A stretch of 49,208 bases of DNA. Source: a virus. Positions 2,385 to 40,680 of this stretch are shown in pieces. The notes under the pieces are model-generated. The model was given only the letters and a program-made list of their open reading frames with translations, had not been told where the DNA came from and made no database searches. A program made the translations under genes and the position numbers. Location of the stretch: positions 1-49,208 of IMG/VR virus record IMGVR_UViG_3300036861_000482; one strand, given 5' to 3'. Each line of letters opens with the position of its first letter. Position 1 is the stretch's first letter.

Positions 2385-3503
2385 TCACACCCCTGTGGAC
2401 GGCGGCTGTGGACAACGCGGACCTGCCCCCGGCGCACGTGCCTTGGGCATCGACGGATCGCTGGCCGGGGGCAGGTGTCCGTGCAGGCGACGGGATTCCA
2501 CCCAGAGATCCTTGAGAATCTCTTTCGACATGACGCGCATGCCACGGGCGTGCTGATGACCCGGGCGAAGAGTGCTACCGGGTTGCGCGGGTTTACCGGC
2601 CGGGCCGCACTGCGCGCACGGCGCGATATGCATCGCCTCGGCGTGCTTCGTGCGCGCCTCGTCGTAGAGCTTCCGATACGGCGAACGTTCCTGCTTCAGG
2701 CATGACGCCGCGATCAGCCACACCCGGCTTTTCGCGGTCGCCGACCAGTTAGCGCGCTGACCACGTTGACGCCGCGCCGCCACCCCGACGCCGCTGGGTT
2801 GGGCATCGGCACGCCGCTGGTCGGGGTGCGGCGCGGCGAGTACGTGCAGGCCACAGTAGGCCCACAGTTGCGAGACGGTCCGTGGCGCGTCAGCCGTGAC
2901 GTTCCAGTACGGGTCGCCGATGACGGCGAGCAGCCGGGCAAGCTGCTTCTCGCCAACACCCAGCGTCGCCTTTTGCCACGCGCCCAGGGGATGCGTCCGC
3001 AGCTGCCGGTTGAGGGCCAACTCGATCGAATGCTCGGCCTTCGACATCGCCTCGATCAGGTGCGCCGACTGCGCGACCACCGGATCGTCCGCCGGCAGGC
3101 CGAGCCCGCGGAGATGCCCGTCAACGTCCGCGACGTCCCGGGTGGCCTGCCGGTGACGGTTCTCCACCGCAATGCGCAGCGCCTCCACATTGTCAAGTTG
3201 CGCGGCGAGCAGATACAGCCGCGCATCCTCGAGGATGGGCCCCGACGCCGCCGCACGGTCACTGGGTTCCGATCGTGAAATGGGCGGCGTCGGGAGTTGC
3301 GCCCGCCCCGGCGAGATCCGACTGGGCATCGTGGCACACCTGGCCGGGGCGGGAGTAGTGGCCCGGTCGGGCGTAGTGACCCTGGGCATCGACTCTCCGA
3401 TGGCCCGACCGGGAGTAGGGCCCGCGCCGACGTGGATCGAATGGTCATCGAGTAGGTGATGGTCGGCGCGGGAAACTGTGGGCTGGAGACTAGGCGTCGT
3501 CAT
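2385..3503 (-). CDS. IS110-type transposase C-terminal-like protein carrying palindromic insertions
   Basis: A 372-residue protein. Residues about 90-290 resemble the C-terminal half of IS110/IS116/IS902 transposases: a helical region, the helix-hairpin-helix-like GVGEKQLARLLAVIGDP (182-198), WAYCGLHV, then GQRANWSATAKSR. There is no recognisable N-terminal DEDD (RuvC-like) domain, so it is probably a domesticated or reduced relative rather than an active transposase. C296-x2-C299 and H316/H318 may bind zinc. Residues 11-88, 222-245 and 343-361 are encoded by six copies of the 30-nt-loop palindrome and look like Pro/Arg-rich inserts. The ATG at 3501-3503 follows GGAGG and overlaps the upstream gene by 14 bases. 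No terminal inverted repeats were seen. Confidence 0.55.
   Translation of the reverse strand: MTTPSLQPTVSRADHHLLDDHSIHVGAGPTPGRAIGESMPRVTTPDRATTPAPARCATMPSRISPGRAQLPTPPISRSEPSDRAAASGPILEDARLYLLAAQLDNVEALRIAVENRHRQATRDVADVDGHLRGLGLPADDPVVAQSAHLIEAMSKAEHSIELALNRQLRTHPLGAWQKATLGVGEKQLARLLAVIGDPYWNVTADAPRTVSQLWAYCGLHVLAAPHPDQRRADAQPSGVGVAARRQRGQRANWSATAKSRVWLIAASCLKQERSPYRKLYDEARTKHAEAMHIAPCAQCGPAGKPAQPGSTLRPGHQHARGMRVMSKEILKDLWVESRRLHGHLPPASDPSMPKARAPGAGPRCPQPPSTGV
2421..2476. repeat. Palindromic element D (30-nt loop, 13-bp arms)
   Basis: Arms ACCTGCCCCCGGC (2421-2433) and its exact reverse complement (2464-2476) flank a 30-nt loop with TGGGCATCG at loop positions 11-19. It encodes residues about 343-361 of the IS110-like protein, with the core read as Ser-Met-Pro. 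Confidence 0.9.
2770..2838. repeat. Palindromic element C (30-nt loop, long bulged arms)
   Basis: CACCCCGAC (2781-2789) pairs with GTCGGGGTG (2820-2828). The pairing continues into a further GC-rich stem of about 10 bp with one bulged base. The loop 2790-2819 is 30 nt and has TGGGCATCG at positions 11-19. It interrupts the conserved domain of the IS110-like protein between the AYCGLHV and RGQRANW motifs, with the core read as Asp-Ala-Gln. Confidence 0.85.
3241..3472. repeat. Tandem array of four palindromic elements (A1-A4)
   Basis: Four consecutive palindromes. A1 has arms 3241-3252/3283-3294 (CCCGACGCCGCC). A2 has arms 3302-3312/3343-3353 (CCCGCCCCGGC). A3 has arms 3362-3372/3403-3413 (CCCGGTCGGGC). 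A4 has arms 3421-3431/3462-3472 (CCCGCGCCGAC). Every loop is exactly 30 nt and ends in TG, and the core TGGGCATCG or a 1-3 base variant lies at loop positions 11-19. Spacers are 7-8 nt beginning AGT. The array encodes residues 11-88 of the IS110-like protein as roughly 20-residue repeats. Confidence 0.92.
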
Positions 3504-4068
3504 CGCCGAACGCCTCCTCCAGCACTTCGGCGGGCAGGTCGGCCGGTGTCTTGGCGTTGTGCTCGCGCATGAGCTTGACGAGCCTGCGATACCGCCCGGC
3601 AGCGGCGGCGTTGGTACGCGCGTGCCGATCGCTCTCTGCGGCGGCGTACAGCAACTCATCGGCCGAACAGTCGATCAGCGGCTTGTAGACGCCCGGGGCG
3701 GCGTGGATGCGCATCCGGAACCCGTTGGCGCGGAACAGCGCGAGCCGCCGCGAAGGAACCCCGACGCCGCCGACGGATCTGCTCTGGGCATCGGGCCGCA
3801 TGTGGTCGGCGGCGTCGGGAGTAGCGCCCGCCCCGGCGAGAGTCCTGTGGGCGTCGCTTGGCGTATGGCCGGGGCGGGGGTCTGAGAGGGGGGCATTGCC
3901 GAGCGCCTGGCGTACGTAGCCGCCGAGCGCCGTCCGGTAGGCGGCACGCATGGCGTCTTGCGGGGTGGCCTCCAGGACGGCATCCGCGAGGTCCGTGGCC
4001 GACCACTCGTCGCGTGTCGCGATCACCTGGTACGTCAGCGCCAACAGGTCGAACTCAATCTCTGTCAC
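3490..4068 (-). CDS. Conserved-type phage protein of unknown function with palindromic insert
   Basis: A 192-residue protein. The N-terminal part (residues 1-58) looks helical and may be a small DNA-binding or oligomerisation domain. Residues about 64-103 are the translated palindromes B2 and B1, a Pro/Asp/Arg-rich insert. The C-terminal part has a basic segment (RLALFRANGFRMRIHAAPGV) and a helical region ending in an acidic tail. The GTG start at 4066-4068 follows AAGGGA. It is directly upstream of and overlaps the IS110-like gene by 14 bases, suggesting joint expression. I do not recognise the family. Confidence 0.6.
   Translation of the reverse strand: MTEIEFDLLALTYQVIATRDEWSATDLADAVLEATPQDAMRAAYRTALGGYVRQALGNAPLSDPRPGHTPSDAHRTLAGAGATPDAADHMRPDAQSRSVGGVGVPSRRLALFRANGFRMRIHAAPGVYKPLIDCSADELLYAAAESDRHARTNAAAAGRYRRLVKLMREHNAKTPADLPAEVLEEAFGDDDA
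3760..3878. repeat. Tandem pair of palindromic elements (B1-B2)
   Basis: B1 has 15-bp arms (3760-3774/3805-3819) extending the same arm sequence as A1. B2 has 11-bp arms (3827-3837/3868-3878) identical to those of A2. Both loops are 30 nt, with TGGGCATCG (B1) and TGGGCGTCG (B2) at positions 11-19. The 7-nt spacer AGTAGCG resembles the A1-A2 spacer AGTTGCG. The loops outside the core differ from A1 and A2. The pair lies inside the 3490-4068 gene. Confidence 0.92.
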
Positions 4069-5242: not shown

Positions 5243-6024
5243 CGCTCGGCGTCCGAGATCATGCGCTGCTTGCGTTCCTTCAACGCGTCGATCACCATGT
5301 CGGCCTGCGCCCAGGTGAGGTCGGCGCTGCTCTCGAGATCCGGCAGCCCGACGATCTTCGCGGTGATCGCGAGTCGCTGGCCCCGGTTCTCGTCGCCGGC
5401 GTAGCCGAGCTCGCGCCACAGCGCGTGCATCTGCCGGTGCTGTACCGGTGCCACGGGCCCGTCGGGGTCATCGCCGGGCAGCGGAGGCGGAGCGGTGCGC
5501 GGGGGCTGTGCGGCCCGCTGAGCCGTCTTCGCGTCGTCCTCGGCCGCGGGTGCCGGAGGCTTCGGCCGCGCAGGCTGAGCGCCACGCTGGGCGGTGCGCG
5601 GCGACCCGTCCTCGGACAGCCGAGACTCGTCGTCCTCGTCGGCGGCGACACCGACCAACGCGGCGAGGCAATACCTCCTGGCGTACGTGATGCGGCCGCC
5701 GATCATCTGGATGCCGCCCTCACCGGAGATCGGAAACTCACCGGTCAGCGCCTCACCGGACTCGTGCAGGAGGTGGTATCGGATGCACATCTTGCCGTCC
5801 GCTCCGGCGCCCGGCATGGCCACGAACGACAGGCCGTTCTCCGCCAGCAGGGGCAGGATCGCGTCGGAGAGATTGGCCAGCGTTACGTAGCTGTAGGAGT
5901 AGGGGGCCTTCTTCGGGTCCTTCGGCTCAACCGTCACCGTGCGGTCGCGCTCCAGCTTGGGCAGCTTCGCCTGGACCTTGGCCAGAGCGGCGGCGAGGCT
6001 TGCAACGCCAATCGGGGTCGTCAT
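5239..6024 (-). CDS. erf-like: ERF-family single-strand annealing protein
   Basis: 261 residues. Residues 1-140 match ERF-superfamily recombinases: a basic N-terminus (LAKVQAKLPKLERDRTV), YSYVTLANLSDAILPLLAENGLS, and the TYARRYCLAALVGV block followed by DEDDE. The middle (about 145-200) is a Pro/Ala/Arg-rich linker and the C-terminus is a separate helical segment. ERF proteins anneal complementary ssDNA, here probably after resection by the exonuclease encoded immediately upstream. The ATG (6022-6024) overlaps the exonuclease stop. The pair forms a lambda Red/RecE-RecT-like recombination module, useful for repair or circularisation. Confidence 0.85.
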   Translation of the reverse strand: MTTPIGVASLAAALAKVQAKLPKLERDRTVTVEPKDPKKAPYSYSYVTLANLSDAILPLLAENGLSFVAMPGAGADGKMCIRYHLLHESGEALTGEFPISGEGGIQMIGGRITYARRYCLAALVGVAADEDDESRLSEDGSPRTAQRGAQPARPKPPAPAAEDDAKTAQRAAQPPRTAPPPLPGDDPDGPVAPVQHRQMHALWRELGYAGDENRGQRLAITAKIVGLPDLESSADLTWAQADMVIDALKERKQRMISDAER

Positions 6025-29392: not shown

Positions 29393-29785
29393 TTAAGTGG
29401 GGTAAACGGTTAATGCCGTGTGAACCAGATACCTGGGTCGTGCGGTCTGCTCGTCGGGCTGCCACAGCGGCGCCAAACGCACATCCACGCCGACCACCCG
29501 GCCGCCGTCGACCGCCGTGCCGGTCATGTCGTAGATCGCGGCGACGACGGTGCGGATCAGGGTGTTGGCCTGCAGTTGGGTGCCGCCCCACGCCGCGATC
29601 TGGAACTCGGGGGTCGCCTCCCACGGCCACGACTGCGACCCGCCCAGGTTGGTCACCTGCAGGCACACCAGATCCGACTGGAGCTCGGTGCTCACCCGGC
29701 CGCCGTGCAGCGGGGACAGGCTGGCGTGCGAGGTGAGGAAGTCGACGAGCTCCTGGTCCATGTCCGGCAGCAGCGCATATGGCAC
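29393..29785 (-). CDS. Tail terminator-like protein
   Basis: 130 residues with LVDFLTSHASLSPLHGGRVS, a WPWEATPEFQIAAWGGT strand pair, NTLIRTVVAAIYDM and a final beta region (RPRYLVHTALTVYPT). The size, order and pattern match tail terminator (DUF3168-like) proteins that cap the tail tube. GTG start at 29783-29785. Confidence 0.65.
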   Translation of the reverse strand: MPYALLPDMDQELVDFLTSHASLSPLHGGRVSTELQSDLVCLQVTNLGGSQSWPWEATPEFQIAAWGGTQLQANTLIRTVVAAIYDMTGTAVDGGRVVGVDVRLAPLWQPDEQTARPRYLVHTALTVYPT

Positions 29786-40003: not shown

Positions 40004-40680
40004 TAGCCCGCCTCCTTCGAGAGCGCGGCGAGCACGTCGTCGCGGTAATGCTGAACGATGAATTCGACGAGATCCGATACTCGCTGCCCGCACGGTTGGG
40101 TCTTCACCCAGAGCTCGAGATTCTCCAGCCGGTTGTCGGCCGTTAGGCCGTTCTTGTGGTGCACGTTCTCCAGCGGGAACAGTCGGCGGTCGAGGTGCTC
40201 CTCCATGACCAGCACGTGCTCCATGACGCGGCGACCGTCGGCCGTCCACACGCGGCGATAGCCGCCCATGTGCGTGGTGCCTGAGCCTTTGACCCGCGTC
40301 GGCTCCACCGGCCCGACGTCGCCGTAACGGCGTAGCCGCTCCTCATGGAGATGGCAATAGTGCCGACCTCGACGCAGTCGGTCGCAGCCGTCCACGTCGC
40401 AGGGCTGCTTGGGCTTGCGCGGCCGGTTTTTGATGGGCGCGGCCGGGCCGGGATCGCCCTTGCCCCGGACGCGGCGGCTGTGCATTTCGCAGTAGCCGCG
40501 GCTCCAATGAGGGCGTTCGCAGCCGTCGACGGTGCAGACGGTGAAGGCCCCGGTCGGAAGTTTCTTGCGTGCGACAAGAGGATCGCCCGAGCGCTTCCAG
40601 CGCCAGTAGTGCTTGGAGCACCACGCTCGGGCGAGCACCTCTTTGTCGCATCCGTCGATCGCGCAGAAGGAGGGTTCCAT
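40003..40680 (-). CDS. HNH endonuclease with three tandem zinc modules
   Basis: 225 residues. Three N-terminal modules of type C-x4-C-x(8-9)-C-x2-H end in R...GDP (FCAIDGCDKEVLARAWCSKH; CTVDGCERPHWSRGYCEMHS; CDVDGCDRLRRGRHYCHLHE). The C-terminal HNH part is MEHVLVMEEHLDRRLFPLEN, VHHKNGLTADNRLENLELW. The modules resemble the one in the 17498 HNH protein. It sits between the capsid gene and the decoration-like gene, a typical homing endonuclease position. Confidence 0.88.
   Translation of the reverse strand: MEPSFCAIDGCDKEVLARAWCSKHYWRWKRSGDPLVARKKLPTGAFTVCTVDGCERPHWSRGYCEMHSRRVRGKGDPGPAAPIKNRPRKPKQPCDVDGCDRLRRGRHYCHLHEERLRRYGDVGPVEPTRVKGSGTTHMGGYRRVWTADGRRVMEHVLVMEEHLDRRLFPLENVHHKNGLTADNRLENLELWVKTQPCGQRVSDLVEFIVQHYRDDVLAALSKEAG

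Follow-up and report, generated by a model that had tools for sequence, protein, structure and literature searches.

TIGR-Tas systems, which bind DNA under the guidance of RNA, have been discovered only recently (Faure et al. 2025, PMC12045711). As described in the main text of that paper, TIGR arrays carry 9-nt spacers between a box D (UG) and a box C (CCA), both of which are found in the loop as well as in the edge repeats, and in the stem-loop form of these arrays variable palindromes substitute for the edge repeats. Array processing, Tas binding and dual-strand targeting are presented there for the characterised systems, and the biological role, spacer origin and maturation of TIGR-Tas are among the questions that the paper raises. 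Here, we analysed eight palindromes at 2421-3878 of a 49,208-nt stretch of viral DNA (positions 1 to 49,208 of IMG/VR virus record IMGVR_UViG_3300036861_000482, hereafter the window). A sequence-only reading of the window had known of no described element with such geometry; stem-loop TIGR arrays were described in 2025 and a matching Tas gene adjoins the palindromes, which are stem-loop TIGR guide units and no undescribed element. The stem-loop arrays themselves are thus already described, and what is new is that the guides are nested in the open reading frames (ORFs) of the effector gene, tas, and of its partner gene.

The units share with the TIGR-TasA stem-loop array of a Peromyscus gut contig, as presented in the main text of the defining paper (PMC12045711), a TasA without nuclease, several hairpin subarrays, a pair of spacers bordered by boxes C and D, and edges that are variable palindromes instead of edge repeats. 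In contrast to that array, the phage units keep a conserved 9-mer as loop repeat and a constant loop length of 30 nt; arrays of this kind are mentioned in the same text as possible intermediates. A further difference is their location inside the tas and partner ORFs: in the main text of the paper, arrays are situated upstream of genes, downstream of them or between them, and none inside ORFs is mentioned.

On recheck, the eight palindromes were found at the positions reported earlier, with arms, loops and core variants as claimed. The loop length is always exactly 30 nt, and the arms are perfect over 11-15 bp in seven of the palindromes and over 9 bp in unit C. When the whole window was scanned for hairpins with perfect 10-bp arms and loops of 24-36 nt, only loops of 30 nt were recovered, together with larger even lengths produced by trimming of the same stems. 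Eight loop-30 sites with such arms are present (seven of the units and an unrelated site at 40584), compared with a mean of 0.13 and a maximum of 1 in 100 first-order Markov versions of the window; the loop length of 30 is thus no GC artefact. By itself, the 9-mer TGGGCATCG shows no enrichment in the window (26 matches with no more than one mismatch, 21 expected), and the significance therefore rests on geometry. RNA folding of the array of units A1-A4 exceeds that of shuffles in strength (z -3.6), and the linkers between units measure 5-9 nt and are AU-richer than the locus. A search of Rfam gave no meaningful match.

Read on the minus strand, each unit has the layout stem-CCA-N9-CGATGCCCA-N9-CG-stem, in which two 9-nt spacers are bounded by box D (YG) and box C (CCA). 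The minus strand is the functional strand, on which the core reads CGATGCCCA and tas is encoded; the plus strand, considered as the guide strand, was ruled out by the boxes, the orientation and the tas gene, all of which are minus-strand. Within one array stems may recur, and both 9-nt stretches flanking the core differ in every unit.

The same anatomy was observed in related loci, which were retrieved by tas. Stem-loop units flank 55 of the 69 related viral tas genes, and an unbiased hairpin scan of 62 tas loci found a loop of 30 nt in 189 hairpins, with only 11 hairpins at the next commonest length and none at 30 in shuffles. Sites selected by the box motif only numbered 425 on the strand of tas and 31 on the opposite strand; the arms flanking them pair at 6.32 of 8 positions, a figure that drops to 3.02 (sd 0.06) once arms are exchanged among units, and at least seven of the eight pairs are formed in 298 of the 425. 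Since the variable arms stay self-complementary and covary, selection acts on structure, as the sequence-only reading had proposed. The spacers of the 288 distinct units collected from tas loci are near-random in composition, and constancy is confined to the boxes, which occur as YG...CCA at both the loop repeat and the edge, with CG predominating and TG replacing it in some loci. Pattern scanning of IMG/VR recovered arrays of this element from further viral contigs; the corresponding scan of genome contigs gave, among the matches listed, chance matches without family-type arms, and a search of INPHARED by DNA similarity returned no near relatives of the window. Variant arrangements were also seen. 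Adjacent hairpins of a 42-nt period array (L122, 2100-2400, and L291) share stem arms, each of which could pair with either neighbour, and in L007 (7890-8460) and L087 (6900-7500) two stem sequences alternate, with a two-unit period of ~111 nt, equal to 37 codons.

The tas gene (2385-3503, minus strand, 372 aa) begins with the ATG at 3503, preceded by the ribosome site AGGAGG, and overlaps the stop of the upstream gene. Its product matches NCBIfam NF052498.1, TIGR_Tas_endo, at 215.4 bits (cut-off 100, E 8.7e-64), a model matched by all 10 of 10 aligned proteins, and its profile finds TasR (9mty, E 6.5e-27) and TasH (E 4.9e-17) in the PDB. With the AlphaFold model as query, Foldseek returned TasR as the best match, TasH too, and then IS110-family recombinases. 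That model consists of a Nop-type helical core and disordered tails only; it holds no RuvC or HNH nuclease domain, and family searches gave no nuclease family match, so the protein is of the TasA type, a Nop domain without nuclease, despite the word "endonuclease" in the NCBI family name. The nuclease effector classes TasR and TasH were rejected for this protein, as no RuvC or HNH is fused to the Nop domain. Pfam returned nothing for the window Tas, and the window's own record contains no Pfam Nop. The protein also matches phrog_4285 (E 2e-90), a family labelled transposase in PHROGs; transposase annotations of tas homologues arise from weak Transposase_20 similarity in some of them. Identity as an IS110 transposase was rejected, the NCBIfam IS110 model being matched by two of 10 homologues (best E 0.005), with the window protein not among them. 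Membership in TIGR-Tas is secure by sequence, structure and anatomy. A divergent Tas homologue (TIGR_Tas_endo, 193 bits) was observed in Microcystis phage Mvi-JY20 (4950-5672), where no stem-loop units of the present type were found and the repeats directly downstream (~5731-6000) resemble a dual-repeat array.

With the dual-repeat TIGR-TasR and TasH systems (PDB 9mty, 21kl) the phage system shares the Nop fold, 9-nt spacers and UG/CCA-type boxes in edge and loop repeats; it differs in having neither RuvC nor HNH and no edge repeat, in place of which there are stems of 9-15 bp. The IS110 bridge-RNA recombinases (IS621, ISCro4) have a related fold and dual guides on opposite strands, whereas the phage Tas lacks a DEDD domain and is accompanied by many separate guide hairpins and no transposon. 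Box C/D snoRNAs with Nop5 likewise combine a Nop-domain protein with a C/D-box guide RNA; in contrast, the phage units have no k-turn, the window protein is not recognisably matched by the Pfam Nop model, and targeting of DNA rather than RNA is presumed.

All eight units, each on the minus strand, fall within open frames, either of tas or of the partner gene; the sequence-only reading had rightly remarked on palindromes inside genes, and this became the most interesting part of the analysis. Unit D (arms 2421-2433/2464-2476, 13-bp perfect stem; spacers GCGATCCGT and AGGCACGTG, loop repeat CGATGCCCA) occupies 2421-2476, where the tas ORF encodes a C-terminal tail predicted to be disordered. Unit C (2762-2846; spacers GCGGCGTGC and ACCCAGCGG, loop repeat CGATGCCCA), in which nine perfect pairs (arms 2781-2789/2820-2828) border the 30-nt loop and the outer stem (2762-2785/2823-2846) is longer and bulged, is located in the Nop-domain part of tas, in the loop between the LWAYCG and RGxxANW motifs. 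The ATG at 3503 places the other four tas units, at 3241-3472, within the 5' part of the ORF: A1 (arms 3241-3252/3283-3294, 12-bp stem; spacers TTTCACGAT and GTGACCGTG, loop repeat CGGAACCCA), A2 (3302-3312/3343-3353, 11 bp; GGTGTGCCA and GTCGGATCT, CGATGCCCA), A3 (3362-3372/3403-3413, 11 bp; TCGGAGAGT and GGGTCACTA, CGATGCCCA) and A4 (3421-3431/3462-3472, 11 bp; TCACCTACT and TTCGATCCA, CGATGACCA). The remaining two, at 3760-3878, are encoded in a disordered linker of the partner gene: B1 (arms 3760-3774/3805-3819, 15-bp perfect stem; spacers CATGCGGCC and GAGCAGATC, loop repeat CGATGCCCA) and B2 (3827-3837/3868-3878, 11 bp; TACGCCAAG and CAGGACTCT, CGACGCCCA). The AlphaFold model of Tas has confident cores and is disordered at residues 1 to ~90, ~221-240 and 343-372, where the units are encoded. 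In related loci, 36 of the 42 units within the Tas core fall in one and the same linker, whose median length is 43 aa when it carries units and 5 aa when it carries none; unit C sits at this insertion hot spot, which many loci use.

The arrays could be merely tolerated in the ORFs of compact GC-rich genomes, with Tas starting at weak codons within or after the array, in which case the open frame would be meaningless. High GC does reduce the frequency of stops, start codons occur within the array in some loci, and the mycobacteriophage arrays lie outside the gene. Against this stands a stop-codon test on 30 loci in which two or more contiguous units precede the Tas core: the arrays contain 10 stops in the tas frame compared with 40 and 65 in the other frames, 25 of them are fully open in the tas frame compared with eight and three, and units outside the tas ORF display no such bias (26/15/30). 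Furthermore, in many loci a start with a Shine-Dalgarno ribosome site lies shortly before the array, such starts being very rare within it, and unit C and its counterparts lie inside the Nop domain and hence must be translated. Mere tolerance is accordingly regarded as unlikely, although it is the strongest of the rival explanations. As the depletion of stops is restricted to the tas frame, guides and protein share sequence, and we conclude, on sequence evidence, that the arrays would usually be translated as part of Tas.

Several observations weigh against reading the locus as a TIGR-TasA system with guides embedded in coding sequence. The binomial p of ~1e-9 for the stop depletion assumes independent loci and is made optimistic by their relatedness. 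In some loci, including those of mycobacteriophages and five of the 30 arrays tested, the array is not open in the tas frame; such closed arrays, and those outside the ORF, indicate that the coding overlap is common and not obligatory. Box D in the present units is mostly CG and not UG. Finally, no natural target was found when both possible dual-strand arrangements were searched alongside two decoy arrangements, matches being equal to decoys across 2.4 Mb of loci, the phage itself and five mycobacteriophage genomes. A one-mismatch match of unit A2 at 29661 belongs to a decoy arrangement and was treated as chance.

The outcome of the target search, the presence of the units in the operon's own mRNA and a TasA without nuclease would all suit hairpins that act as cis-regulatory RNA only, bound by Tas to control operon expression, with spacers that are no guides. 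We consider this improbable on account of the mycobacteriophages, between which stems and flanks are nearly identical and the near-random 9-nt spacers differ, as guides would. The tas gene was found in 84 phage records, 76 of them Mycobacterium phages, most of which are grown on M. smegmatis, and its annotation in the mycobacteriophages is transposase or hypothetical protein. Fromanvirus phages carry ~5 units in ~335 nt of noncoding sequence upstream of tas, so that the array stands outside the ORF. Differing spacers amid near-identical stems and flanks bring native function, targets and spacer turnover within reach of tests in a laboratory model. As observations in their own right, the Fromanvirus loci (L247, L251, L315-L325) carry unannotated TIGR-TasA systems of ~5 units near the immunity repressor region, and unit 2 has an 18-nt loop repeat with a small stem of its own.

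A role of the hairpins as DNA sites that work as folded single strands (an origin, a primosome site, a recombinase site or an integron-like attC) is scarcely credible: strong hairpins with a conserved core, the folding of attC sites and the kinship of TIGR proteins with IS110 recombinases speak for it, whereas an orientation fixed relative to tas, two hypervariable 9-nt segments, the boxes and the adjoining Tas are features of guide RNA. Equally remote is a mobile palindromic mini-element inserting into genes in the manner of Rickettsia palindromic elements, since, in spite of units that lie in frame at tolerant positions inside genes, stems and both spacers differ between units, the boxes are the sole common consensus, and the units cluster with tas in one orientation in tas or partner genes (in loci that had been retrieved by tas). 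The Rickettsia analogy drawn in the sequence-only reading thus finds no support, and from its list of possible roles RNA-processed hairpins survive while the primosome site and the mobile mini-element do not. Taken against these rivals, a TIGR-TasA system with coding-embedded guides is held with high confidence, which extends to the identification and not to the feedback considered below.

The conserved partner gene (3490-4068, minus strand, 192 aa), directly upstream of tas, belongs to phrog_4604 (PHROGs, 15 of 15 members), to which PHROGs assigns no function. Homologues are found near tas in ~20 of the 69 loci by tblastn and alignment, usually directly upstream of it. In the AlphaFold model helices flank a disordered middle, residues 63-101, where B1-B2 are encoded; comparison with the PDB gave no fold match, and family searches gave no family beyond phrog_4604. 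Homologues were observed in L253, L255, L259, L296 and BPBiebs31 (gp75), and the linker hosts guide units in several phages. On the other side of the locus, at 1942-2033 downstream of tas, GGGTGGC/GCCACCC inverted repeats possibly represent a terminator or a regulatory site.

With regard to mechanism, the eight guide units of this phage would be transcribed from the minus strand together with tas, and, by analogy with the characterised systems, the hairpins may be released from the transcript by cuts at the short linkers; the fixed orientation with tas and the AU-richer linkers are compatible with transcription and processing into tigRNAs. A TasA dimer could then bind the hairpin through box C (CCA) and box D (CG) and be directed to an 18-bp DNA site, at which spacers A and B would pair with opposite strands, as in described TIGR systems. 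Having no nuclease, TasA would presumably bind or bend the DNA and not cut it, and this may serve to repress, to interfere with another element or to assist an integrase. In this phage and in many relatives, the tas RNA would be at once message and guide precursor, with units in the 5' extension, in an internal loop, in the C-terminal tail and in the partner gene. Cutting a guide out of the tas message should destroy that message and would limit Tas synthesis, a negative feedback by which guide processing may autoregulate tas.

Overall, the window leads to a large family of phages with compact TasA systems, 76 named mycobacteriophage records among them. It is conceivable, and we put it forward tentatively at somewhat below even chances, that a large phage group, mostly actinobacterial where named, employs a dual-coding array in which guide maturation competes with effector translation for the same RNA, making the dose of the TasA complex self-limiting. 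If true, guides nested in the coding sequence of their own effector would represent an unusual economy with a possible built-in feedback.
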